Part shown: positions 14,169 through 41,669 of the stretch, one piece after another
How positions within the stretch are numbered: position 1 is the first letter of the stretch
Layout of the letters: every line of letters begins with the position of its first letter
From: Anaerolineae bacterium
GTDB lineage: Bacteria > Chloroflexota > Anaerolineae > Aggregatilineales > Aggregatilineaceae
Direction: 5' to 3'
NCBI GenBank assembly: GCA_016926875.1
Contig: JAFGNU010000017.1
Span: forward strand, 62,001 to 126,000
DNA: 64,000 bases
Notes under the pieces: model-generated
What the model saw: the letters and a program-made list of their open reading frames with translations, nothing else
What the model was told of the DNA's origin: nothing
Databases searched by the model: none
Position numbers and translations under genes: made by a program

Positions 14169-14540
14169 CTATACCCCCAGCCCGATCTGACCGGCCAGGA
14201 TGCGCAGCAGCGTGTCCTTGTCCGCTTCTATCCACGCATCCCAGGGTTTATCGAGCGTTTCGACCAACTGCTGCCGCTCCGCTGCCGCCTGCTGGGCAGC
14301 GGTCAGCCCGTTTGCATCGTGTGCCGCGATCACCGGCCCGATCCGATCCCTGATTTCCTCGCTGATCGCTGCATCGACGATCACGCGCACTTTGCCCGGC
14401 TCAATGCACACCCCGGCCAACACATCCTCACCGACCGCTGCGTTTAGCTCCTGTTGCAGCAGGGGATGGTTGACCGGCTGATCCGTTTCGAACACAACTT
14501 CGATTGTGTCCTGAATGGGGATTTCGTCTGTGATGGTCAT
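14169..14540 (-). CDS. Small phage-associated hypothetical protein
   Basis: The start at ATG 14540 overlaps the stop of the upstream gene (TGATG) and follows AGGTGA, so the two are translationally coupled. The 123-residue protein is acidic (MTITDEIPIQDTIEVVFETD at its start). It ends in a helical region rich in Ala, Gln and Glu. I do not recognise a family. Its place at the end of the tail-gene run suggests a virion or tail-associated accessory protein (inference). It is the last gene before the terminator hairpin. Confidence 0.65.
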   Translation of the reverse strand: MTITDEIPIQDTIEVVFETDQPVNHPLLQQELNAAVGEDVLAGVCIEPGKVRVIVDAAISEEIRDRIGPVIAAHDANGLTAAQQAAAERQQLVETLDKPWDAWIEADKDTLLRILAGQIGLGV

Positions 14541-15031
14541 CAGGTCACCTCGCGCGCCAGGAAGCTGTACTGGTAGATATAGGCTGTTGCCGCCGCGTCG
14601 TTTACGCGCCACTGCGGCTTAAATTCGTGCGTGCCCGCTTCCAGGCCGGTCACCAGGTAAAAAAGCGTGATGCCCTTTCGATTGCCGCTGTAGCGGTTCA
14701 TCTTCAATATCCCGATGCTGACCTCACTCACGCGATCACCGTCTACATCAAAGTCCAGGTAGATGTAGTACGCATCGCTTGCTGCGTCCAACTCAACCGC
14801 CGCCTCAAACAGCAGCAGCACATCACCACCCGATGTCGTCAGCTCGCGCACCATGCCAGCCGTGAGGTCCGTCCAGGTGGTGCTGGTTGTGCTGATCGTC
14901 GTGTTGAAGTTCTGAAGCCTGGACGAGGGCGGCGCTTTCAGCGCGTTCAGGTTGTCGCGCAGGTGCGTATTGAGCATCGCCGCCGTGACCAGCTCGCTTG
15001 TGCTCCATGTCTTCGGCGTTGTCCATGCCAT
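14540..15031 (-). CDS. Phage tail-fibre/virion-type protein
   Basis: The 163-residue protein starts MAWTTPKTWSTSELVTAAML and continues with NTHLRDNLNALK, a pattern often seen at the start of small phage tail or virion proteins. The rest is beta-rich (VLLLFEAAVELDAASDAYYI, GTHEFKPQWRVND) and looks like a receptor- or surface-binding domain. It is in one minus-strand run with the larger tail protein upstream (22-base gap) and coupled to the gene downstream. The phage link is established by the N-terminal pattern and context; the exact role is inferred. Confidence 0.7.
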   Translation of the reverse strand: MAWTTPKTWSTSELVTAAMLNTHLRDNLNALKAPPSSRLQNFNTTISTTSTTWTDLTAGMVRELTTSGGDVLLLFEAAVELDAASDAYYIYLDFDVDGDRVSEVSIGILKMNRYSGNRKGITLFYLVTGLEAGTHEFKPQWRVNDAAATAYIYQYSFLAREVT

Positions 15032-15053: not shown

Positions 15054-16535
15054 CTAGAATCCAAGCCGCGTTTGGCTGCCCAGTGCGCCATAGCCGTTCA
15101 CCCCCAACAGCCAGTACTGGGTATCGTCAGCCCGCTCCAGGTGCAGCACGATCTCAAAACCCTGGGCGCTGGCCCGGTATTCAACTGCCCGTATCCAGTG
15201 CCCCAGCGCGTTCGCCCCGGTCTGCTCGTCGCTGACCTCGATCTTGTCCAGAATGCCGAGATTCCACAGGCGCACCCCGTTTATAACGTCACGGTTGCGG
15301 ATCACGACCCGGTCAGCGTACAGGAACGGCTCCTTGTAGCGGCCTATCACGTACCCGGCCAGCGCCTGGCCGAAGGCGAGATCGGACTGCATCGGCAGAT
15401 CAAAAACGCGCTGGCGTACCTGGTAGCTGCCCTGGCTGCCCGTGTCTTCTTCCTCGATCACGATCGGATCGTAGGTGATGACCGGCTTGCCGCGTACTTG
15501 CAGCTTGGTTACATACAGCGGCCCGATGGCGGTGCTGCTGAGTGTGATCCTGGTCCGGGTGGCTTCCTTTTCTACGTCGATGTCGAAGCTGGACGAGTAG
15601 GTATAGTTAAAGCCCGAACCATTCGAATACTCGTTGACCTCGTAGTCGGTGCCCGCGACCGGCGTTACCACGTTCACCGCGCCGCAGCGCTCGCCCGCGT
15701 CATCGTGGTAGTTGGCGTAGATCACGCGCGACTCGCCCGGCTCGATTTTGTACGATACGTGCGACTGCCACAGCACCTGCGCCGTCCCGATGGTTTCAAC
15801 CGGGTAGATTTTCACCTGCGCCTGGTTAACCACCGTCTCGATGCCGATCTGCATGACCAGGTCATCAACCGGGTGATTATTCAACGCCAGGGCCGCGCTG
15901 GCGCTCGCATCCTGAAAATCGCCGCGCGCCCGGTAGATCATCACGCCATTACCGGCGATGAAAAACCGGCCATACACCGCCCGGCATACTTCGCCGACGG
16001 CCTGCACGACGGTTGTATGCTCCGGTGTCCAGGTGCGCCCGTAGTGTTCCAGCGCATCGCCGTTGTCGGTGAAGTCGTGGCCCACACTGTAGGCTAGGTT
16101 TGCCAGCGCGGTCAGCGCGGCGTCAACGTCTTTGCTGTCCTCGTGCGCCACGTCAACGCGTGCCCCGGCCAGCAGCGCGATCCCGTCTACACATTCGATC
16201 ACGACTTCGCGCCTGCCCAGACCGCCCGCCCCAGGGACGATCCGCTCGATCCAGCCGCTAAACAACTGCGCGTTCTCGGCCCCGCCTGTTTCCCGGACGA
16301 ACACCTTGCGCCTGGGCAGCAGGTCGCCGTACAGATCGCCCCCGCTGCAACCAGGGCTGAACCGCTGATCGCTGTTATCCAGCACCAGGCGGCAGCGCCC
16401 GACTGCCGCCACCGGGTCGCCCGGCTGCGCAAAGCCGCGCCAGATGTACATCGACAGCACGCGCGCGGTTTCGATCTCGCCGTCTTCAAAGCTGCCGTCG
16501 CCATCCCAGTCAATATCTACGCGGAACGTTGCCAT
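15054..16535 (-). CDS. Phage tail/baseplate-type protein
   Basis: The 493-residue protein begins MATFRVDIDWDGDGSFEDGE, with a leading domain containing RCRLVLDNSDQRFSP and VFVRE. A segment around LFSGWIERIVPG and REVVIECVDGIALLAGARV follows; this pattern is found in phage tail hub or baseplate proteins. The C-terminal half is beta-rich, with WIRAVEYRASAQGFEIVLHL near the end. A strong AGGAGA ribosome site precedes the ATG at 16535. It is the largest tail gene here and the nearest thing to a baseplate or tail-tip protein. No tape-measure protein is present in the window. Confidence 0.7.
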   Translation of the reverse strand: MATFRVDIDWDGDGSFEDGEIETARVLSMYIWRGFAQPGDPVAAVGRCRLVLDNSDQRFSPGCSGGDLYGDLLPRRKVFVRETGGAENAQLFSGWIERIVPGAGGLGRREVVIECVDGIALLAGARVDVAHEDSKDVDAALTALANLAYSVGHDFTDNGDALEHYGRTWTPEHTTVVQAVGEVCRAVYGRFFIAGNGVMIYRARGDFQDASASAALALNNHPVDDLVMQIGIETVVNQAQVKIYPVETIGTAQVLWQSHVSYKIEPGESRVIYANYHDDAGERCGAVNVVTPVAGTDYEVNEYSNGSGFNYTYSSSFDIDVEKEATRTRITLSSTAIGPLYVTKLQVRGKPVITYDPIVIEEEDTGSQGSYQVRQRVFDLPMQSDLAFGQALAGYVIGRYKEPFLYADRVVIRNRDVINGVRLWNLGILDKIEVSDEQTGANALGHWIRAVEYRASAQGFEIVLHLERADDTQYWLLGVNGYGALGSQTRLGF

Positions 16536-16559: not shown

Positions 16560-17000
16560 TTAATCCACGTGCAGCGTCCAGGTGTGGGTGAACGCCGCGC
16601 CGTGATAATCCACGCCCCCATAACGCACGACCCCGGCCCGCATACTGAAGCGCAGCGCCGTTGCCAGCGCCCCATCCAGCAGCGGGTCGGCAGCCATCGC
16701 GTCAACGTACAAGTCGATATAGTCGGCCAGGTCCACCAGCGCGCCCCGCAGCCCGATCCCACCCGTAACCGGCACGATCAGCAGCAGGTGCGTCACCCGC
16801 ACGGCCAGTTTGCCGTCGCCCGCGCTAAAGCCGCTTGGTTCCAGCCCCGGCGACTCGCCGCCCAACTCCGGCATGATCACCAGCGCCGGAAGCTGCGCAC
16901 GCGCCAGCGCGTCGGGCGTTTCATCCACTGCATAGGACGTGACACCGGTCACGGATACGTTCGCCAGGTTCGCCAGCGCCCCGGCCAGAATGCCTGCCAT
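16560..17000 (-). CDS. Tail terminator/completion-like phage protein
   Basis: The 146-residue protein has an alpha/beta pattern with a conserved closing strand (FTHTWTLHVD). This is consistent with the size and layout of phage tail terminator or neck proteins (gpU-like); the assignment is an inference. The ATG at 17000 follows AAGGAGATA. It lies between the connector gene upstream (with an inserted MITE-like element between them) and the tail protein 24 bases downstream, which is the expected place for such a protein. Confidence 0.55.
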   Translation of the reverse strand: MAGILAGALANLANVSVTGVTSYAVDETPDALARAQLPALVIMPELGGESPGLEPSGFSAGDGKLAVRVTHLLLIVPVTGGIGLRGALVDLADYIDLYVDAMAADPLLDGALATALRFSMRAGVVRYGGVDYHGAAFTHTWTLHVD

Positions 17001-17266: not shown

Positions 17267-18106
17267 CTACGCTACCTGCACGCGCACGTAGGGCGATAGA
17301 ATCTGCTCCACGTCATCCGGCAGCGCAGGCGGCACCGTGACCTGCCCGCGCAGCCCGCCCGTCACCTGGACAAAGCCCGCGTCTTTCTGCTTGTACAGCC
17401 AGCTTGCCACGCGCAAACACGCCTGCCGGATGTCGTCGGGCGGCTGGTAGACCTCGATGGTCGTGTCCTGGACATGGCTGGTTGCGGTCGTGCCGTTCAC
17501 GCCGCGCGCAACCGTCAGCCGGTTCAGCGTCGTGTTGATCGCCAGCACATGCAGGTATTCATCCTCGATGCGGATCAACTGGCCGACCGCGAACCGCTCA
17601 AACTGGCCGGTTGCGTCCGCCCCGTCGGCGTCCTCGACCAGCAGCAGGATCGCGCCCGCGTTCAACGGGTCGTTCTGCACGCTGTCCTGCGAATCAGCCC
17701 AGGCGTCCGGCCAATCCAGGTGATAGCCCCATGTGCCGTCTACTTCGATAGCTTCGATGGGATCGCCGTCATGGGTGAAGGCCGCCTGCGTCCGGTCCAG
17801 CAGCACGCTCGATACCACCGCCGCCCCGGACGGGTGCAGGTGGTAAGCCGAAGCCGGGATCGTGCTGCCGTCGCCGTTGGTCAGCGTGTGCAGCGCCAGC
17901 AGATCGCCGCGCAGCGAGAGCGCCGCCGGGTTATCGCAGTCATACGCCTGTGCTGCCCGTTCCGGGTAAAAGCGCCGCCCGGTATAACCCTCGATCAGCC
18001 GGGATGCCGCGCCCAGCACCCGCAGCAGCAGGTCGTCGTCGCCGGTCTGCGAATCAGACAGGCCCAGGTAGCGCCGTACATCGGTGAGTGTTGCGTAGAT
18101 ATTCAT
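17267..18106 (-). CDS. Phage head-tail connector (gp6-like) protein
   Basis: The 279-residue protein starts MNIYATLTDVRRYLGLSDSQ and continues with a helical N-terminal region (LLRVLGAASRLIEGYTGRRF) typical of gp6-like head-tail connectors. The family also shows the closing helices seen here (IRQACLRVASWLYKQKDAGF). It is longer than the usual ~100-200 residues because of a beta-rich middle insertion (~residues 90-225). The insertion includes a segment like those of virion decoration domains (LIRIEDEYLHVLAINTTLN). The AGGAGG ribosome site supports ATG 18106. The protein would join the portal ring to the tail. Confidence 0.75.
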   Translation of the reverse strand: MNIYATLTDVRRYLGLSDSQTGDDDLLLRVLGAASRLIEGYTGRRFYPERAAQAYDCDNPAALSLRGDLLALHTLTNGDGSTIPASAYHLHPSGAAVVSSVLLDRTQAAFTHDGDPIEAIEVDGTWGYHLDWPDAWADSQDSVQNDPLNAGAILLLVEDADGADATGQFERFAVGQLIRIEDEYLHVLAINTTLNRLTVARGVNGTTATSHVQDTTIEVYQPPDDIRQACLRVASWLYKQKDAGFVQVTGGLRGQVTVPPALPDDVEQILSPYVRVQVA

Positions 18107-18392: not shown

Positions 18393-18938
18393 ATGACCGA
18401 CCCGGAGCAGACAACTGTTGGCTTAACCGAGCATCCCCAGCCGTGTCCAAACTGTGGGCATTACTGCCATCCACACGCCGACCACTGCCCGTGCTGCAAC
18501 CACCCACTGCAAGATGCCAGCCCGCTAACTACCCGTCCGCTACAACGACTTCCCCATGCCATGCCGGGTGGCCGAAAAGGGCGGGATTACCTGGCCCCAG
18601 GCGCCGGGTTGATTCTCCAATTCCTGCCGTCCGGCTATGCGGTCCCGCTGGCGCTAGACAAGCCTGTGATCCTGGGACGCGGCGAGTTCTCCGGCCCGGA
18701 GGATTACCTCAACCTGATCGACCTTAACGGCTTGCAGCACGGGGTTTCACGCCAGCACTGCCGGTTCCTCCGGAGCGGTACACAGTTGATCGCCATCGAC
18801 CTGAACAGTTCCAACGGCACCTACCTGAACGACGAGAAACTCACCCCGCATCAACGCTATGTTGTGTCCGACGGTGACAGACTGATTCTCGGCACGCTGC
18901 ACGTCAATGTCTTTTTCAACGTCTCCACTACGCCGTAG
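18393..18938 (+). CDS. Zinc-ribbon plus FHA domain protein
   Basis: The 181-residue protein has an N-terminal zinc ribbon with two CxxC pairs (CPNCGHYC and CPCCNHPL). A C-terminal FHA domain carries all signature motifs: LGRGEF, GVSRQHCRF and LNSSNGTYLN. FHA domains bind phosphothreonine peptides, so this is probably a cytoplasmic adaptor in Ser/Thr kinase signalling. It has the same architecture as the FHA protein at 45.7-46.5 kb. It lies on the opposite strand within the capsid/tail unit, between the capsid and connector genes, with its own -10 element. Confidence 0.88.
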   Translation: MTDPEQTTVGLTEHPQPCPNCGHYCHPHADHCPCCNHPLQDASPLTTRPLQRLPHAMPGGRKGRDYLAPGAGLILQFLPSGYAVPLALDKPVILGRGEFSGPEDYLNLIDLNGLQHGVSRQHCRFLRSGTQLIAIDLNSSNGTYLNDEKLTPHQRYVVSDGDRLILGTLHVNVFFNVSTTP

Positions 18939-19003: not shown

Positions 19004-20830
19004 CTACACGGTCAGGTTGTATAGGACGCTCGCCACCTCGGTATCAAAGCGCGCAAACGCCAGCCGCACGGTTGCCACCATCTGGTAAGCATCGTAGTAC
19101 GGCAGGTAGTCCATCGTGGCCGCGACCCGGCGGCGGTAGCCCACCACCCAGCCGGGCCGGTAGACGCACACCGCCTGCCCCTTGGTATTGCCGGTGGCGT
19201 TGGCCTTGCCGTCCGCCTGCGTGAGCGGCATCTCCGCGCTGACCAGCACCGGCACGCCGTCCACCTTGGCGATCTCGCCGGTCAACACGGTGGCGTGCGG
19301 ACCAAACTTGTCGACCGTCGCCACGTCATCCAGGCTCAGCAGCTTGGCATACGTGCTACCATCCACGATCCAGGCGCAGTCCGTCGGGCGCAGGGCATAG
19401 CGGGGCAGCATCAAAAAGCGCGTGGTGCGCAGCAGCGCCACCGTCGGCGCACCGTTGGCGTCCTGGGCGTTGTCGGTATTGGTCACCAGCGGCAGTTTGC
19501 GCAGCCCATCAAAGGCCAGGTATTTCACCGTGCTGTCCGGCGCGCCGTCGTCGCTGTTGATGTTGCCGGTCGCGCCGGTTTCGGTATCGCCGTTGAGCAG
19601 CACGTGATCGATGGCGTCCGCCATGACGCACAGCGCCTGCTCGCGGTAGAGCGGGATCAGCGGGATGGTCGTATCTTCGACCAGTTCCGCCGAAAAACCC
19701 ACGCGCAGCGCCAGCTTTTTGGCGGTCAGCGTGACCTTGCCGCTCCCGACCGGGCTGTCGGGGATCGGGTTGGCGCTGCCCAGCGTCAGATCGGCCTCGT
19801 CCTGCGTTTCCGGCACGTAGTACACCGCCGGATCGGTCCCGGCGATGGGCAGTTCAAACGGGTTGGACGGCATCTCGATCACGCGAAACAGCGGCAGGAC
19901 CACGTTTTCCGCGCGCGCCTTGCGCCACAGTTCGCTGGACCAGATGTCCGGCACCCATTCCGCGCCGTAGCCGGTGTTGTCAGTGTGCATCAACTCGTCG
20001 GATTTGACCGGCAGCGCGCGCAGCGCCCCCGCGTCAAGCTGGCCCTGGTCAACCGCCTGAAACGCCTTGTAGGCCAGTTCGCGCATAAAGGCATTGGTCG
20101 GCGCCCACTGCCCGCTGCGGCTCAGCCAAGTGTGCATGAACGCCATATCGACCGCATCCAGCCCGGCGTACTTGCTGTGCACCTCGATGTGCGGCGCGCT
20201 CGGACGGGGCGCCGTCTGCGCCGCCGGGAGCCGTTTGATCGCGTCGCCGCCCTGTGCATTGTGTTGGTTGCTCATCATCCCTCCATCCACCTCGCGTATA
20301 CATTGCCCGTCGATTGGTTCAATCCGGTCGGTCGACAGGCCCAACGCCCGGAACGCCGCCTTGACCGCTACCGCGTCGGTGTAACGCGGTTCGGCGGGCG
20401 TGGGCGTCAGGCTGCCCTCGACAATCGGCCAGCGCCGAATGTGCCCGTTGGCGGCCACCTCGACCAGGTGCGGCAAACTGCCGCTGCTCCAGCCGAGCGC
20501 CTCCTGCCCGACCAGGTCCAGCACCGCCCGCGTCCAGCGATCCCGCAGGTCAAGCTGCGCCTCGACCCACACGCCGACCTCGTCCGGTTGCAGCGCGGTG
20601 ATCTGCCCGATCATGACCGGGCCGAGCGCACCGTCCAGCCCGTGCTGGTAGAGCACCGGGCGGCGCGGGTACCAGTCCAGGCCCAGGTCGGTGCCCGGCG
20701 TGAAGTACTCGCCCTGCAAATCCGGGCGCGACCGGTCGCCCCACACCACCAGGTAGCCGCCGATCCGCCCGTTCGCGTCCAGCGTTTTGACCGCCGTTGT
20801 GACCGGCGCGCGGACTGCGTGTTGTGCCAT
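19004..20830 (-). CDS. Fused prohead protease-major capsid protein (HK97 type)
   Basis: The ATG at 20830 has a clear AGGAGG site; the open frame extends further up but lacks such a site. Residues ~15-160 match the S78/HK97 prohead protease: a His in VLYQHGLDG (His63) and a Ser in ALGWSSGSLPH (Ser115/116). After a ~80-residue linker, residues ~240-608 match an HK97-fold capsid protein: the N-arm, then the segments YYVPETQDEADLT and LRVGFSAELVEDTTIPL, with a closing RRRVAATMDYLPYYDAYQ. The protease would cut itself off as the shell matures. The catalytic residues are retained. The gene is first in its unit and follows the SOS-like promoter. Confidence 0.85.
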   Translation of the reverse strand: MAQHAVRAPVTTAVKTLDANGRIGGYLVVWGDRSRPDLQGEYFTPGTDLGLDWYPRRPVLYQHGLDGALGPVMIGQITALQPDEVGVWVEAQLDLRDRWTRAVLDLVGQEALGWSSGSLPHLVEVAANGHIRRWPIVEGSLTPTPAEPRYTDAVAVKAAFRALGLSTDRIEPIDGQCIREVDGGMMSNQHNAQGGDAIKRLPAAQTAPRPSAPHIEVHSKYAGLDAVDMAFMHTWLSRSGQWAPTNAFMRELAYKAFQAVDQGQLDAGALRALPVKSDELMHTDNTGYGAEWVPDIWSSELWRKARAENVVLPLFRVIEMPSNPFELPIAGTDPAVYYVPETQDEADLTLGSANPIPDSPVGSGKVTLTAKKLALRVGFSAELVEDTTIPLIPLYREQALCVMADAIDHVLLNGDTETGATGNINSDDGAPDSTVKYLAFDGLRKLPLVTNTDNAQDANGAPTVALLRTTRFLMLPRYALRPTDCAWIVDGSTYAKLLSLDDVATVDKFGPHATVLTGEIAKVDGVPVLVSAEMPLTQADGKANATGNTKGQAVCVYRPGWVVGYRRRVAATMDYLPYYDAYQMVATVRLAFARFDTEVASVLYNLTV

Positions 20831-20878: not shown

Positions 20879-20921
20879 CAGCGGCCAGCCCAACGCCGAC
20901 CGCCCCACGTTGACAATTCCA
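20879..20921. repeat. 43-bp leader repeat, copy beside the capsid promoter
   Basis: See 18148-18190 (39 of 43 bases identical). This copy abuts the 30-bp SOS-like promoter element. Confidence 0.7.
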
Positions 20922-20948
20922 GTTTAGCACAAATGTTCTGTTTGTCTA
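20919..20948 (-). promoter_or_regulatory. SOS-like box and promoter of the capsid unit
   Basis: These 30 bases are identical to 33622-33651 upstream of the terminase unit. On the minus strand they give TAGACA (20948-20943), a 16-base spacer, then TAAACT (20926-20921). The spacer holds GAACATTTGTGC (20938-20927), one base away from the GAAC-N4-GTTC box of Gram-positive-type LexA. The box lies ~97 bases before the capsid start. The remaining sequence to 21297 contains no gene: only a hairpin (21032-21058) and a short palindromic repeat (21209-21237). Confidence 0.65.
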
Positions 20949-21031
20949 CGTCGCTAACTATCATTTTTTAGTGTCATTTTTAACGGTGATTGTTATGTCT
21001 GACTGTTATGTTCGAACCGGCGGGGGACAAT

Positions 21032-24705: not shown

Positions 24706-26277
24706 CTAATTCTGCTCAGCCGTATCGATCTCGACCTCTGTACTGACCTCTGCCTCGTCGGCATCCGGCTCCGGTTCGCCGCGCCACAACTTGACTGCGG
24801 CCTGCGCTTCCGGTGTATCGATGCGCCTCAGCGCTTCGGCGGCGGCCCAGCTTGCCTGCCAGCCCGTGTTGTGCAGCGCTTCCATCAGCGCCGGGACTGC
24901 CAGCTTGCCCATGCCTTGCAGCGCTTCCGCCGCCGCATAGCGCACATCCCAGTCCGCATCATCCAGCATAACAACCAGTCCCGGAATCGCAGGCTCTCCG
25001 ATCTCGACCAGCGCGTGGATCGCCACCGGGCGCACCCGTTCATCGTTTTCGCGCAGGGCAGCCAGCAAGGGCGCAACGGCAGCTTCCCCGATCCGCCATA
25101 ACGCCTCGGCTGCGGCCCAACGCGCGCGCCAGTCGCGGTCACGCAGCTTATCGATCAAGCCCGGCACCGCCGCCGCATCGCCGATCCGGCCTAACGCCGA
25201 AGCAGCCGAGATACGGACTTCATGTTCGGAGTCACGCAGCGCCCTGACCAGGTCGGGCACCGCCGAAATGTTTCCTGTATTGGCGAGCGCTTCGGCTGCT
25301 CGCCAGCGCACGCGCGCTTCGGGATCGTGCAGCGAATCGATCAGCGCCGGGACCACGTCCTCGCCGCCGATGTCGCCCAGCACGTCCGTAGCGTGCAGCC
25401 GGATCTGCCAGTCGGCATCGTCCAGCGCATCGATCAGCACCGGGATGGCTGGTTCGCCAATGTCGCGGAGCGCGGCGGTGATAACCATCACGTTCCCCCC
25501 ACCGCCAAACGGGCCGGGCGCCCGCACGCGCAGCGTATCCAGCAAGACCGGGACCGCTGCCACCGCTTTGATCTGGCCCAGCGCCCGCGCTGCCACGTCC
25601 CGCGCGCGCCAATCATTGCCGCGCAGCAGCTTGATCAGCGCCGGGATGGCCGCCTTGTCGCCCAACTCACCCAACCGCTGGATGGCAGCAATACATGCTT
25701 CCCGGTTATCCCCGCGCTCCAACCGCTCGATCAGCTTCTCGACCGTCTCCGTCTGAATCCCCTGATCGGGACGGCGGTTGTTGTTCGCGTCCTCGCGGCG
25801 TTTGATGCGCTCCAACAGGCTGCCGGATGGTTGCTGCAACGGCGATCCAAACGGCACCGCATTGCGAGACGGCCTGGCCGGTACCGACGGCCCGCTGCGG
25901 CAGGCATTCTGCACCTGCCGGATCAGCTTGCCCCAGGGCTGAGCGTCCGGGTCGCTGAAATCCAGGCGCGGCAGCGCTTCCAGGCGTGGGTGGATGTCGG
26001 CGGGTTTCAGCACAATTGGGATGACGGATACCCCCACACCCAACGCGAACGTCCACTCGTACATCATGTGCTCAGACGCGCTGGCGTCCGATGGTTGGAT
26101 CACGAGCAGGGCAAACGCATCGCGGATCGCCTGATCGATCGATTCGCGCCACTGCCCGTCCGCACGCAGCCGTTCAGTGTCCGACCAGACCCGGAACCCG
26201 GCATCCTCAAGCTGGCGGATCAGGTCGGCAGCAAACGCTGCGTCTTTAGGTTTATACGAGATATACACATGGCCCAT
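24706..26277 (-). CDS. TIR domain protein with HEAT repeats
   Basis: Residues 1-~135 are a TIR domain: MGHVYISYKPKDAAFAADL, then a cysteine-free core with Glu74 in MMYEW at the place of the catalytic Glu of NAD-cleaving TIRs. Residues ~185-500 are about ten HEAT/PBS-lyase-type repeats of ~31 residues (for example DWRARWAAAEALWRIGEAAV). The 523-residue protein ends in a short acidic tail. TIR plus a repeat scaffold is typical of bacterial immune or signalling proteins, where repeats sense a partner and TIR acts on NAD. That role is an inference. It is a single-gene unit with a terminator. Confidence 0.88.
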   Translation of the reverse strand: MGHVYISYKPKDAAFAADLIRQLEDAGFRVWSDTERLRADGQWRESIDQAIRDAFALLVIQPSDASASEHMMYEWTFALGVGVSVIPIVLKPADIHPRLEALPRLDFSDPDAQPWGKLIRQVQNACRSGPSVPARPSRNAVPFGSPLQQPSGSLLERIKRREDANNNRRPDQGIQTETVEKLIERLERGDNREACIAAIQRLGELGDKAAIPALIKLLRGNDWRARDVAARALGQIKAVAAVPVLLDTLRVRAPGPFGGGGNVMVITAALRDIGEPAIPVLIDALDDADWQIRLHATDVLGDIGGEDVVPALIDSLHDPEARVRWRAAEALANTGNISAVPDLVRALRDSEHEVRISAASALGRIGDAAAVPGLIDKLRDRDWRARWAAAEALWRIGEAAVAPLLAALRENDERVRPVAIHALVEIGEPAIPGLVVMLDDADWDVRYAAAEALQGMGKLAVPALMEALHNTGWQASWAAAEALRRIDTPEAQAAVKLWRGEPEPDADEAEVSTEVEIDTAEQN

Positions 26278-29220: not shown

Positions 29221-30354
29221 TCAAGGCGTGCCAAAACCGAACCCGCCGATACACACACTGCCCTCTTGATCAAGGTGATAACTGGCCCCAATGGTCAGGT
29301 ATTCCAGGTTGTCCAGATCAACTTCGTGTTCCTCAAACGTAGACAAGGGAATAACGATCCGCTGCGCTCCCTCGAACAACGGTTGGATGTTTTCACGCCA
29401 CTCATTACCGCCCGCGTCTATCAGGCTGACCCGAAACTGCTCGCCGCCCGTTTCTCCCTGTGCCCAGAACACCAGATGGGTAGCACCGCCCACCACCTGT
29501 AAATCCGGCGGCAGTTGGATTTTGCACCCGGCAAAACTGTTGCGCCGCGACACGTCCCACGTGAGACGGGCGGCATCCGGCACGCCAGGCAGATCACACT
29601 GTTCATCCGGCAGAAACAGCAGGCCCCCCTCGCCCTCAAACTTACTCGCCTTGCACAGCGATTTGAGCTGCCCCGCCGGGAACAATGTTTGTTGGGGAGT
29701 GGGCATGGGCGCCGGTGTTTGCTGCGGTGTAGGAATCAGCGTCTCGGTTGGGGAAAGCGAAGTAGATACGACCGTCGGTGTCGCAGTTGATAGTTCGGCA
29801 GCCTTGATGGGATTGTTGATGGGGCAGGCTGCATCACAAAACAGGCCGGTCACCACCGCCAGAACGACAACAAATGCTATCTTCAACGGTAAACCGATAT
29901 GCTTTGGGAGTTTTGATCTGGGTGGGGGTGGCGGGCATAACTTCTCCGGTCCCACGCCCATTAGTTCAGCTATTGCACGCCTTAATTCTATGAATCCGTG
30001 TTCCTCATCCTCAACAAAACTGATGCGTTGGATACGACCATAGCGAAAAGGGATATCCTTTTCGGGCACCGATCGCAGCATTAGCAACATGAGGGATTTC
30101 GCTGTACGGTCGGCATAGTCCCATTCGTCGAGTACGTTCTTGCTCGTGACGCTTTCCGGGGTCATGACGCCGATAACCACGTCCGACGCTTTCAATCCCG
30201 CGAAAACGGCATCGTCCCAGCCCTTTTTTCCCGGCGTGGCATAAGGAATGTCATCCACATCGAGCCATGTTTCACAGCCCCACGTCCGCAGTCGTTCATC
30301 CAAACGCCGGGCGAACGCCAAATCTTCACGCTTGTAGCTGATAAAAACTTGCAT
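29221..30354 (-). CDS. TIR domain protein with one TM segment and an outer jelly-roll domain
   Basis: Start ATG 30354 follows GGGGGAAG. Residues 1-~135 are a TIR domain (MQVFISYKREDLAFARRL), with Glu77 in LDEWDY at the catalytic position. A Pro-rich stretch leads to one transmembrane helix at ~157-173 (LKIAFVVVLAVVTGLFC), then a Thr/Pro/Gln linker. Residues ~230-377 form a beta-sandwich with HLVFWAQGETGG. The domain order predicts TIR inside and a sugar-binding-like domain outside, like a receptor. The outer domain resembles that of the GH17-like neighbour (42-base gap), suggesting an operon or shared ligand (inference). Confidence 0.85.
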   Translation of the reverse strand: MQVFISYKREDLAFARRLDERLRTWGCETWLDVDDIPYATPGKKGWDDAVFAGLKASDVVIGVMTPESVTSKNVLDEWDYADRTAKSLMLLMLRSVPEKDIPFRYGRIQRISFVEDEEHGFIELRRAIAELMGVGPEKLCPPPPPRSKLPKHIGLPLKIAFVVVLAVVTGLFCDAACPINNPIKAAELSTATPTVVSTSLSPTETLIPTPQQTPAPMPTPQQTLFPAGQLKSLCKASKFEGEGGLLFLPDEQCDLPGVPDAARLTWDVSRRNSFAGCKIQLPPDLQVVGGATHLVFWAQGETGGEQFRVSLIDAGGNEWRENIQPLFEGAQRIVIPLSTFEEHEVDLDNLEYLTIGASYHLDQEGSVCIGGFGFGTP

Positions 30355-30431
30355 CGCTTCCCCCAACAGCAGTATCAGAGAATATGACCATTGTATCATA
30401 AGTATTTATAGTTTTATGAATACTTAGAGAA

Positions 30432-30492: not shown

Positions 30493-31779
30493 TTATTCTC
30501 CCGCGGCCACCTCACCGGGCGGCGGCTCGACTTCAACCGGCACGCCTTCATCCTCCGGCGCGGGATCGCGCACCGGTTCATTTTCCGCCCCTGTGTCCGT
30601 CTCAGCCTCCGGCCCATCGCCCCAGGGCACTGGCCCAAGCTGGAAGTAGCGCGCCCGGATTTCGTTCACGCTCAGCACGCCGCGCGCCGCGCGGATTTCC
30701 TCGAAGGTGGCCGATTTGTCCTGCGGGCGGATGTCGTCAAAGCACCCAACGAGATCGCCCGCATAAAACGGCAGCAGGTCGGTCGTGATCTTCTCCGCGA
30801 TACGCACCAGCTTCGGCCACAGCGTCCGCTCGATGAACACCCGCTCGCCGACCAGCGCGTTCGCCTCGGTCGCGTTCTCGCTGAACATGCCGACCGGGAT
30901 GCCGAATATCTGGAAGATTTCCTCGCGGTTGAAGCGCCGCGCGTTCAGAAAGTCCATGTCCTGCTGGCTTAGCCCGACGTTGTGCCACTCCACCGACGCG
31001 CCGCGCAAAAAGGCCGTCTTGCGCTCGCGTCCACCGTAGGCCGTGCGCCACTCGCGCTTGAGCCGCTCAAAGTCGGCGTCACTCACCCGCTCGCGGATCG
31101 CCACGATGCCCGCCGGGACGGCCATTCCCTCGCCAAAGTAGCGCCGGTTCCAGTCGGCCATCGCCCGGTCGGACTCGACCGCCAGCCGCGCCGCTTCGAG
31201 CGCGCTCAGGCCGTAGTAGTCGTTGGCCGGGTGCCAGCGCCGGAAGTGCACCACCTCGGATGCGTCCAGCGGCACGCGCCGCCCGTCCACCTCGTAGATA
31301 TAGCCGCGCACGCCGCGCACCGGGTCCGGCACGATGCTGACGCGATCCGGGCGCAGCGGCCACAGTTCCAGCGGCGGACCGCCCGCCTGCCCCGCCAGGA
31401 ACCAGTAGGCGTTGCCGTGAATTTCCAGGTGCCCAACCGTGTGTTCGAGCAGCTCAAAGCGGCTCATCAACGGATTCGGACGCCGCAGCAGGCGCTCAAA
31501 AGGATGATCCGCGATCTCGATGGTCTGCTCGCCCACGCGCGCCAGCACCCGGAAGGGCACCAGCGCCGCCGCCTCGGCGATGCGGTTGACCGCCACGTAC
31601 ACCCACGGACTACCCATGTACACGCCCGCGTACCGGCTCGCCTGTCCAAACTCCGGCGGCGTTTCCGGCAGCGGTTCCCCGATCACCGCCGACTCGACGC
31701 GCTGGATCACGCTGGCCGGTCGCCATTTCACATAGCCGATCCGCCGCAGCACCCGTTCGATTAGCGTTGTATTCGCCAT
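30493..31779 (-). CDS. Phage portal protein (HK97 type)
   Basis: The 428-residue protein matches the HK97 portal family in length and layout: WVYVAVNRIAEAAALVPFRV, then HPFERLLRRPNPLMSRFELL, then HGNAYWFLAG, ELWPLRPDRVSIV and the later NREEIFQIFGIPVGMFSEN helix region. The acidic, Pro-rich C-terminal tail is typical. Portals form the 12-subunit ring at one capsid vertex for DNA packaging. The ATG at 31779 follows AAAGGGACAGG. It lies 90 bases after the large terminase, in standard phage order. Confidence 0.88.
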   Translation of the reverse strand: MANTTLIERVLRRIGYVKWRPASVIQRVESAVIGEPLPETPPEFGQASRYAGVYMGSPWVYVAVNRIAEAAALVPFRVLARVGEQTIEIADHPFERLLRRPNPLMSRFELLEHTVGHLEIHGNAYWFLAGQAGGPPLELWPLRPDRVSIVPDPVRGVRGYIYEVDGRRVPLDASEVVHFRRWHPANDYYGLSALEAARLAVESDRAMADWNRRYFGEGMAVPAGIVAIRERVSDADFERLKREWRTAYGGRERKTAFLRGASVEWHNVGLSQQDMDFLNARRFNREEIFQIFGIPVGMFSENATEANALVGERVFIERTLWPKLVRIAEKITTDLLPFYAGDLVGCFDDIRPQDKSATFEEIRAARGVLSVNEIRARYFQLGPVPWGDGPEAETDTGAENEPVRDPAPEDEGVPVEVEPPPGEVAAGE

Positions 31780-31869: not shown

Positions 31870-33060
31870 CTATACAAAACTGATGCCCGGCGCGGCGTTG
31901 GTCGCCCCGTGCCATGCCAGCGCCAGCGCGATCACCGTGTCGTCGTGATCGCCCGGCGGCGCGCTGTAGCGAAAGCACCCACTCGGCAGGCGTTCCAATG
32001 CATACGCCTGGAGTTCGCCCATCAGCACCGGGTCGGGCAGGATCGCCAGTTCGCCGCGTTCGAGCGCCAGCGCCAGCGATTCGATCAGCGGCCCCTTGCT
32101 GCTGGCCGTCATGGTGAAGGGCATCACTGGCAGGCCCTCGGTTTGCAGCGCCTCGATGTTTGGCCCGCCGATGCTGTTTGCCTCCGCCCAGATGGCATCC
32201 GGCTGCCACCGCTCCGCCACCGCTGCCAGCCGCCCGCGCTGCAAGCCCCAGCCGATCTCATTGAAGCGGTCCAGCGCCACCAGCCGCCGCTCCGTGACCG
32301 ACAGCACCGCAATGGCCGTGAAATCGTTGTCCCGCCCCCAGTCCACGCCGAACACGACCCGCTCGCCGGGCAGCGGCGCCGAGCGCGCGTCCGCCGTTGC
32401 CGCCGCTTCCACGCGCCGGAACACGCCGCCCGTATCGGCCAGGAACTCCGCGAGATATTCTTGGCGGAACAGCCGCTCCGGCAGCAGGGCGCGCGCCGCC
32501 TCGATCTCCGCCGGGTCGATCAGCGGGTTAGCCGACGTCGGGAAGCGCCAGCTTTGCCACTGGGACTGCGCCGGGTTCTGGCCCAGCATGTACAGCCCCC
32601 AAAACCAGTTGCGCCCGCGCGGCGTGCTCAGGAACAAGCCTTCCCCGCGCCGGTCGGCCAGCGCCGGGCGGATGGCCGCCGCCCACACGTCCGGGTGCAG
32701 GTAGGCTGCCTCGTCCAGCACGGCCACGTCCAGCCCGGACCCGCGCAGATCGTCGGGGTTGTGCCCGCTGCGCACCACGATCACGCCGCCGCCCGGCAGT
32801 TCGATGCGCCGCATATCTTCACACTTGACCCGCCACACCCCGGACAGGCTCGCTTTCAGCCCCCGCCACACATCGTCGGCCATGCGATACGTCGGGCTGA
32901 TCCACCAGCCGGTCAGCCCGTCCAGCGCACGCTCAATCAGCAGAATCTTGCCCGTCTCCGTCTTCCCGAAGCGGCGACCGCAGGCTACCACTTTGAAGCG
33001 GGCCGGGTGCCGCAGGATGTCGATCTGCCCAGGGTGTGGTTGATACAGGTTGACCGTCAC
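31870..33060 (-). CDS. Phage terminase large subunit
   Basis: The 396-residue protein keeps both activities. The ATPase has Walker A ACGRRFGKTE (residues 26-35) and Walker B VAVLDEAAY (Asp116, Glu117). The RuvC-like nuclease has VVFGVDWGRDNDFTA (Asp240, Asp244) and PPGDHDDTVIAL (Asp371, Asp373/374) near the end. It would cut and pump DNA into capsids. The GTG start at 33060 has GGAG ten bases upstream and lies inside the previous gene, an overlap of 128 bases. All active-site residues are intact, which argues against simple decay. Confidence 0.9.
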   Translation of the reverse strand: MTVNLYQPHPGQIDILRHPARFKVVACGRRFGKTETGKILLIERALDGLTGWWISPTYRMADDVWRGLKASLSGVWRVKCEDMRRIELPGGGVIVVRSGHNPDDLRGSGLDVAVLDEAAYLHPDVWAAAIRPALADRRGEGLFLSTPRGRNWFWGLYMLGQNPAQSQWQSWRFPTSANPLIDPAEIEAARALLPERLFRQEYLAEFLADTGGVFRRVEAAATADARSAPLPGERVVFGVDWGRDNDFTAIAVLSVTERRLVALDRFNEIGWGLQRGRLAAVAERWQPDAIWAEANSIGGPNIEALQTEGLPVMPFTMTASSKGPLIESLALALERGELAILPDPVLMGELQAYALERLPSGCFRYSAPPGDHDDTVIALALAWHGATNAAPGISFV

Positions 33061-33463
33061 GGCTCACATACTCCACGCGAATTGTTTGATCGGACGAAAA
33101 ATCGATCTGCCCCTTGTTCAGCACGCCGGTGCGCCGGATCAATCCCACCCGGTCCAGCACATCGCGCGCCGCCTGTACCGCCACCCGCGTATCGTCGCCT
33201 TCCAGCGCCCGCCGCAGCACGGCGACAGCTTCCGGCGTCAGCGCGTTCAGCGCCGCCAGCGTATCCTGCACCTGCCCGTTCTGCTGCATACAGCGCAGCA
33301 GCGCTGCAAAATCTTCGCTTGCCTGCCACGCGGCCAGCGTCGCCGGACGGACGCGCACCATCTGTGCCACCTCGTCCGCGCTGTGCCCCTCGGCCAGCAG
33401 CCGGATCGCGCGGCACACCCGCTGCTCAACCGGCGGGCGGTCGCGCTGTTTGCCCCCACTCAT
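32933..33463 (-). CDS. HTH protein, small terminase-like
   Basis: The ATG at 33463 follows GGAGGTGAG. The 176-residue protein has an N-terminal homeodomain-like HTH (VEQRVCRAIRLLAEGHSADE, then VAQMVRVRPATLAAWQ), as in many phage small terminase subunits. It is followed by a helical region (TLAALNALTPEAVAVLRRAL) for oligomerisation and a VLNKGQIDF segment. The last ~43 codons overlap the large terminase in another frame, so the natural C-terminus may be shorter, or a frameshift may exist. It is first in its unit, 160 bases after the SOS-like promoter. Confidence 0.7.
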   Translation of the reverse strand: MSGGKQRDRPPVEQRVCRAIRLLAEGHSADEVAQMVRVRPATLAAWQASEDFAALLRCMQQNGQVQDTLAALNALTPEAVAVLRRALEGDDTRVAVQAARDVLDRVGLIRRTGVLNKGQIDFSSDQTIRVEYVSRDGQPVSTTPWADRHPAAPGPLQSGSLRSPLREDGDGQDSAD

Positions 33464-33621
33464 ACGACTCACCTCCACTCGCCATCCAGGCAGGCGCCCC
33501 CACCATCGACCGGCACGCCCGGCCACCTGCACAGGACTCACCCTCGCGGCTCTCGTTAACGGCACCTGCTGCCCACCCGCTGATTTTCAGGTCCGCGCCC
33601 GCCCAGGTGACCGGGATGATC

Positions 33622-33651
33622 CCAGTTTAGCACAAATGTTCTGTTTGTCTA
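33622..33651 (-). promoter_or_regulatory. SOS-like box and promoter of the terminase-portal unit
   Basis: The 30 bases are identical to 20919-20948. On the minus strand they give TAGACA (33651-33646), a 16-base spacer holding GAACATTTGTGC (33641-33630), and TAAACT (33629-33624). Similarity continues weakly ~20 bases further upstream. The rest of 33464-33884 has no gene that I can support. Confidence 0.65.
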
Positions 33652-33884
33652 TCGTCGTTAACTGTGATTTTTATGTCTCATTCTTAAGTGCGAGAGATAT
33701 CAGCACAGTGGGAAAACAGCGTTGTACGCATATTTCACACTCGCAAGGTGTCTTTCTTGAATTGAGCACAAAACCTCTGCGCGGCAGTTTGTGATACGGT
33801 GTAGAATGAATCCATCACACCCGTCTGATACACTGCTGCACTATCGTCGCGCCTACTCGCAGGTTTGATCGCCGGGAGGAACGA

Positions 33885-41232: not shown

Positions 41233-41478
41233 TCACCCGGTATCATCTTCATCCGGCAGGTTCCACACACCGCCGATCACCTCAATCGACCGGCGGCCTG
41301 AGATCAGGATGCGCCGTTCGATCTGAAGCTTCATCAAGTGGTAGCTGACGGTGGATGTGCTGAGCATACACTCCTTTGCAATTTCCGTGACCGTTGGCGC
41401 CAGCCCGTCATGCTCGCGTTTGTAATCGACAATGAATTGAAAAATCTGCTCGCGGTTCGGTGAGTGATCACCACGCAT
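41233..41478 (-). CDS. LexA-type winged-helix protein without peptidase domain
   Basis: ATG 41478 follows GGAGGG. The 81-residue protein is a single winged helix of the LexA N-terminal type (IFQFIVDYKREHDGLAPTVT, then EIAKECMLSTSTVSYHLMKL, then GRRSIEV). Full LexA is ~200 residues, with an S24 self-cleaving domain that is absent here; the frame ends with an acidic tail. It cannot therefore be inactivated by RecA-driven self-cleavage. The upstream region carries a strong promoter with a perfect GAAC-N4-GTTC palindrome, suggesting autoregulation. It may compete with or replace full LexA at such boxes, including those of the phage-type units (inference). Confidence 0.75.
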   Translation of the reverse strand: MRGDHSPNREQIFQFIVDYKREHDGLAPTVTEIAKECMLSTSTVSYHLMKLQIERRILISGRRSIEVIGGVWNLPDEDDTG

Positions 41479-41615: not shown

Positions 41616-41669
41616 GAACACATGTTCGACAGCAGGATCAGTATATACGATACGTCACAGGCTTGTCAA
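41616..41669 (-). promoter_or_regulatory. Promoter with a perfect SOS-like operator before the LexA-type gene
   Basis: On the minus strand TTGACA (41669-41664), an 18-base spacer and TATACT (41645-41640) are followed 12 bases later by GAACATGTGTTC (41627-41616). This is a complete GAAC-N4-GTTC palindrome. The operator lies where transcription would start, as expected for self-repression. It is ~138 bases before the ATG. Confidence 0.7.

Follow-up and report, generated by a model that had tools for sequence, protein, structure and literature searches.

Putative LexA (SOS) promoter-operators precede a split, vertically inherited phage packaging and capsid module in Anaerolineae

In Gram-positive-type LexA regulons, the operator is a GAAC-N4-GTTC palindrome located between the −35 and −10 elements, and lexA itself is autoregulated. 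PBSX of Bacillus subtilis is an SOS-induced defective phage, encoded by a contiguous prophage with its own repressor, that packages host DNA and kills relatives, and it is not known to transfer DNA. Gene transfer agents (GTAs) are defined by caudoviricete-derived proteins that form caudovirion-like particles, by full endogenization, often at several loci, by mostly vertical inheritance with host co-diversification, by the packaging of mostly random host DNA in which their own genes are not fully packaged, and by the delivery of that DNA to other cells (PMC9662315). The RcGTA-type GTAs of Alphaproteobacteria (Rhodobacter, Dinoroseobacter, Caulobacter) combine caudoviricete-derived packaging and structural genes with vertical inheritance and several loci; their switches are quorum sensing, CtrA and Gaf activators. 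The GTA cluster of D. shibae has a LexA site predicted in silico (PMC6473078). In Caulobacter, GTAs help cells to survive DNA damage, the LexA-like RogA represses the GTA activators (PMC9632790), and a co-opted immune-like system, LypABC, controls GTA release (PMC13236601). A contribution of domesticated phage particles to DNA repair is still debated. Searches of the open-access literature found no relevant paper on a GTA or domesticated prophage in Chloroflexota or Anaerolineae, and no report of a domesticated GTA-like element under direct SOS control.

The locus described here lies in a 64,000-nucleotide stretch of an Anaerolineae (Chloroflexota) assembly, referred to as the window, which was compared within its family and order. 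The window contains a split caudoviricete module, where unit A encodes the small and large terminase subunits (TerS and TerL) and the portal protein, and unit B encodes a protease-capsid fusion, an adaptor, a tail terminator, a hub and two small proteins. With a probability of roughly 0.77, the module is a domesticated one that is silenced by LexA, released by the SOS response, fired under two conditions and used for GTA-like packaging, a reading in which LexA binding, induction, particles, packaging, transfer and the role of a small helix-turn-helix (HTH) protein are inferred. The module differs from the RcGTA-type in phylum and gene set; recA-type LexA boxes are positioned on its structural promoters themselves, across an order, and a tail tube and tape measure were not found within it. 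BhGTA (VSH-1) differs in belonging to a spirochaete, Brachyspira, and the portion of its description available to us gives no operator basis for its damage response. PBSX is alike in its phage origin and in SOS induction and host DNA packaging, both predicted here, and unlike in its own repressor, its contiguity and its killing of relatives. Compared to Gram-positive-type LexA regulons, the recA and phage promoters here use a GAAC-N4-GTGC box that overlaps an extended −10 element.

The two promoters, 12.7 kb apart, share a 30-mer that is identical at both positions (Table 1), as the original prediction held. On the minus strand, both copies read TAGACA-N16-TAAACT with GAACATTTGTGC inside the spacer, so that the −35, spacer and −10 stand as first assigned. 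A search that tolerated up to three mismatches matched both sites, versus 0.00 expected in shuffles. The check that had been asked for, in which the entire assembly (3,749,337 bases, 86% complete) was scanned with the same tolerance, returned just these two copies; a simple repeat or a chance match is rejected. From the end of the −10 element to the start codon, the distance is about 90 bp for the capsid gene (ATG at 20830) and about 160 bp for the terminase small subunit gene (ATG at 33463), and the likeness of the two promoters continues upstream of the 30-mer (TTAGCGACGTAGACA and TTAACGACGATAGACA on the minus strand). Only this genome shows the exact identity; in eight others, the two promoters are 61–82% identical over 28 bases. 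Such exactness in one genome alone could mean that duplication or gene conversion recently copied the 30-mer without any shared function. However, both promoters are boxed across the family and the order, and conversion may explain the identity, but not the motif; as a full explanation, copying is refuted and keeps next to no credence.

The prediction that a LexA-type operator precedes both phage-type units is supported by comparison, as the same box occurs at recA, at DNA-repair genes and at the phage units of relatives. The type of the box required refinement, from the perfect GAAC-N4-GTTC to the recA-type variant GAAC-N4-GTGC. In particular, a GAAC-N4-GTGCTA box is present at recA in all 14 family members examined, this genome included, mostly downstream of a TTGACn-like −35, while 16 of 17 lexA loci in the family carry GAAC-N4-GTTC between their −35 and −10 elements. 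This genome's lexA promoter (TTGACA-TCGAACATCGGTTCGCT-TTATAA) holds the palindrome within its spacer. The operators of recA (AGAACATACGTGCTACAAT), lexA (GAACATCGGTTC) and the phage units (AGAACATTTGTGCTAAACT) in this genome show the match at lexA and recA expected of an SOS regulon, as well as the expected overlap of operator and promoter, with the phage box, which is the recA-type box, lying inside the 16-base spacer. The base of GTGC that departs from GTTC coincides with the TG of the extended −10 (TGnTAAAnT; TGCTAAACT), and we infer that the variant was kept because replacing GTTC by GTGC produces this TG. In the phage promoters, a second conserved element overlaps the −35, which is weak.

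Because relatives of the finding itself had been used to refine the regular expression, a weight matrix trained only on the recA promoters of 13 other family genomes, and independent of the finding, provides the cleaner test. According to this matrix, the two 30-mers are the two top-scoring positions of the whole window at 25.4 bits, followed by a third site at 12.0 bits; the best score averaged 11.1 bits over 20 base-shuffled windows, one of which held a 24.0-bit site. The pattern GAACNNNNGTGCTAWNNT has 90 sites in 18 family genomes versus 5 for a reversed control pattern, and the genes downstream of it include recA, uvrC, ftsK, methyladenine glycosylase, an AlkZ-like glycosylase (Pfam-confirmed) and the phage units. 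Most family genomes encode two RecA paralogues (L260 and L270; G000:C44 and C73), and the second serves as a negative control: the LexA box is present in 14 of 14 of one set and in 0 of 10 of the other. Read from their bases, and with LexA binding inferred in the absence of binding data, the two 30-mers are LexA (SOS) promoter-operators. In the proposed mechanism, these operators, built into extended −10 promoters, would place LexA between the −35 and −10 of both promoters in an undamaged cell, keeping the two units silent; DNA damage would then lead to RecA-stimulated LexA cleavage, releasing both units simultaneously, along with recA. The cell would make heads and packaging motor together and would probably package host DNA in a GTA-like manner.

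A small conserved protein of about 153 aa with no assigned function, as well as DUF3795 and VOC-like proteins, are also found downstream of SOS boxes in several family genomes (L246, L097, L243). Sites near gyrA, gyrB, polA and radA, returned by a first, loose pattern, were left unused as their orientation or distance was ambiguous.

Both phage promoters are boxed in most family genomes, with a few capsid promoters carrying the variants GAAT-N4-GTTC or GAAC-N4-GGTC. Across the order, a perfect box lies within 320 bp at 37 of 74 capsid loci, versus 0.94 expected, and 24 of 37 distinct TerL loci have an upstream box, nearly all of them in family f6 (shuffled null, 1.8 of 48). Several f6 portal loci have GAACATATGTTC upstream. 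Under the regular expression used, a perfect box is missing from a third to half of the order-wide loci. The simplest reading of boxes that follow scattered genes would be a shared control under selection. In three viral contigs (L220:970, L221:9889 and L224:9889), GAACAATTGTGCTACACT lies some 110 bp upstream of a related capsid gene, and LexA control may therefore predate domestication. As many genera, even those in which the genes are scattered, keep recA-type SOS boxes before the packaging genes of phage origin, the link between damage and particles is directly testable in Chloroflexota; the comparison also supplies a usable LexA motif for these Anaerolineae.

Table 1. Positions of the promoter elements and genes of the module in the window.
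Feature	Position	Strand	Remarks
Putative SOS promoter-operator of the capsid unit	20919..20948	-	LexA box 20927-20938; extended -10 TGCTAAACT
Identical putative SOS promoter-operator of the terminase-portal unit	33622..33651	-	LexA box 33630-33641
Second conserved element TTAGCGACGTAGACA, capsid promoter	20943..20957	-	Overlaps -35; common to terminase promoter, not recA
Second conserved element TTAACGACGATAGACA, terminase promoter	33646..33661	-	From promoter comparison
Terminase small subunit	32933..33463	-	HTH, PHROG 2538; GTG start at 33565 also possible
Terminase large subunit	31870..33060	-	Walker A (GRRFGKT) intact
Portal protein	30493..31779	-	Annotation of unit A
TIR-domain protein	29221..30399	-	Directly downstream of portal gene, 94 bp behind
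TIR-HEAT protein	24706..26277	-	Between portal and capsid genes
Prohead protease fused to HK97-type major capsid protein	19004..20830	-	Protease inferred from conserved H63 and S116 regions
Zinc-ribbon/FHA-like protein	18393..18938	+	Opposite strand inside capsid unit; position kept in relatives
Head-tail adaptor	17267..18106	-	PHROG 442
Tail terminator (lambda gpU fold)	16560..17000	-	Structure model, pLDDT 76.5
Tail/baseplate hub (Mu gp44 / T4 gp27 fold)	15054..16535	-	Structure model, pLDDT 87
Small tail-module protein	14540..15031	-	Conserved in family; distant match in viral contig L223
Final small gene of module	14169..14540	-	Conserved in several relatives
81-residue LexA-like HTH protein	41233..41478	-	LexA-type HTH; no peptidase domain
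LexA box GAACATGTGTTC	41616..41627	-	Just downstream of -10 of the 81-residue regulator

Among deposited phages, the genes of both units have no close relatives, the best matches being 35% identity for TerL and about 28% for the capsid. The viral contigs with related capsids carry tape-measure proteins, and the bacterial modules examined are without them. Within the module, to which the examination for such genes was confined, no tail tube, tape measure or lysis genes were seen; nor, with not every ORF annotated, were an integrase, replication genes or a complete tail set. An Rfam search of 14–42 kb gave no matches. The zinc-ribbon/FHA-like gene occurs in several tandem copies in one relative (L134). 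TIR-type genes lie between the portal and capsid genes throughout the family, and the one directly behind the portal gene is probably part of the same transcript. A death or release function for these proteins is possible; likening it to the immune-like control of GTA release in Caulobacter is speculation by analogy.

The TIR-domain genes, together with SOS control, the retained hub and terminator, and a tail tube and tape measure that were not found, would also suit an SOS-induced headed particle that, like PBSX, kills relatives or has another role rather than transferring genes. No killing function was seen, however, and the terminase, portal and capsid are the most constrained genes, which indicates DNA packaging; such a role is unlikely, though it remains the most serious competitor to gene transfer. 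In particular, dN/dS is 0.11–0.24 for TerL, portal and capsid, compared to 0.11–0.13 for the flanking phosphomannomutase, while TerS, adaptor, terminator and hub evolve faster (0.14–0.73).

The caudoviricete genes, and the viral contigs with related capsids, some of which (L220, L221, L224) have LexA-like boxes close to the capsid gene, could point to a recent, undomesticated prophage of the ordinary kind, possibly a defective one, whose promoters are sensitive to SOS. The distribution of the genes speaks against such an origin. TerL and capsid are each present in 15 of the family's 18 genomes, almost without exception as a single copy and with 72–83% identity, and their order and flanks (p355 and phosphomannomutase) are the same across the family's genera. 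The dS values of TerL, portal and capsid are close to those of phosphomannomutase (for TerL, 0.309 and 0.485 versus 0.324 and 0.487), and the phage protein distances agree with those of the host's RecA and LexA (Mantel r = 0.80, p = 0.002), with two genomes (G001 and G005) placed differently in the phage and host trees. Named relatives are almost all Anaerolineae or Chloroflexota assemblies. Across the order, the capsid is present in 113 and the portal in 112 of 154 genomes, or about three quarters, and both are absent from family f3; TerL is present in 88 of 98 genomes of f6. There, TerS-TerL, portal and capsid usually occupy separate loci scattered between host genes. In the single-contig genome G094, capsid and portal are 1.35 Mb apart. 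As the module also showed neither an integrase nor replication genes, subject to the incomplete annotation noted above, the prophage explanation is already disfavoured and very improbable.

Domestication, by contrast, agrees with these data: within the family, purifying selection and vertical inheritance are apparent from the gene comparisons, and the module fits a GTA-like element under direct SOS control, with packaging, transfer and induction inferred. The GTA definition is satisfied in full endogenization (fixed synteny in the family, separate loci in f6) and, apart from the two differently placed genomes, in mostly vertical inheritance with host co-diversification; the proteins are caudoviricete-derived by annotation and folds, but the particles that they would form have not been observed. 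Full GTA status is not claimed, as packaging and transfer are inferred. The evidence consists of sequence comparison alone, mostly of metagenome assemblies, without binding, expression or particle data; with LexA switches before inherited head and packaging genes, these bacteria would nevertheless probably make phage-like, DNA-carrying particles upon DNA damage.

Moreover, both phage promoters of the family share a second element, TAAARTT-N5-TTAGCGnCGAAGAC, that overlaps the weak −35 and is absent from recA promoters. This element probably needs a dedicated factor, for which the 81-residue LexA-like HTH protein is a plausible candidate, its role being inferred without binding data. The protein is conserved in 16 of 18 family genomes, its gene lies near TerS in several loci of both the genome's own family and f6, and a LexA box directly follows its −10 in all 14 readable family members. 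A requirement for both this factor and LexA release would make firing depend on two conditions. The conservation, TerS linkage and LexA-type HTH of the protein also allow that it, or another repressor, is the main occupant of the boxes in vivo instead of LexA. Yet the same box is found away from the module at recA, uvrC and ftsK, and the HTH gene is itself LexA-boxed, making this quite improbable; joint binding is not excluded. An extension of the LexA reading, in which an order-wide Chloroflexota GTA lineage has separate loci that are each wired to LexA, a two-key switch in which the SOS-boxed HTH protein reads a second, co-evolving promoter element, and perhaps a TIR role in death or release, is tentative, and we would lean somewhat against it as a whole.

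Further, over the 60 bases upstream, likeness is 0.56 between the two units of one genome versus 0.46 between genomes (permutation p = 0.0004), which would fit either a shared factor with a co-drifting site or gene conversion. In a lag analysis for tandem repeats in the upstream regions, the only excess was weak, at 13 bp for f1 and 11–12 bp for f6. In some f6 phage promoters (L146, L154, L197, L366, L368), the LexA box is preceded by direct repeats about 12 bases long (ACAAATGTTCAC).
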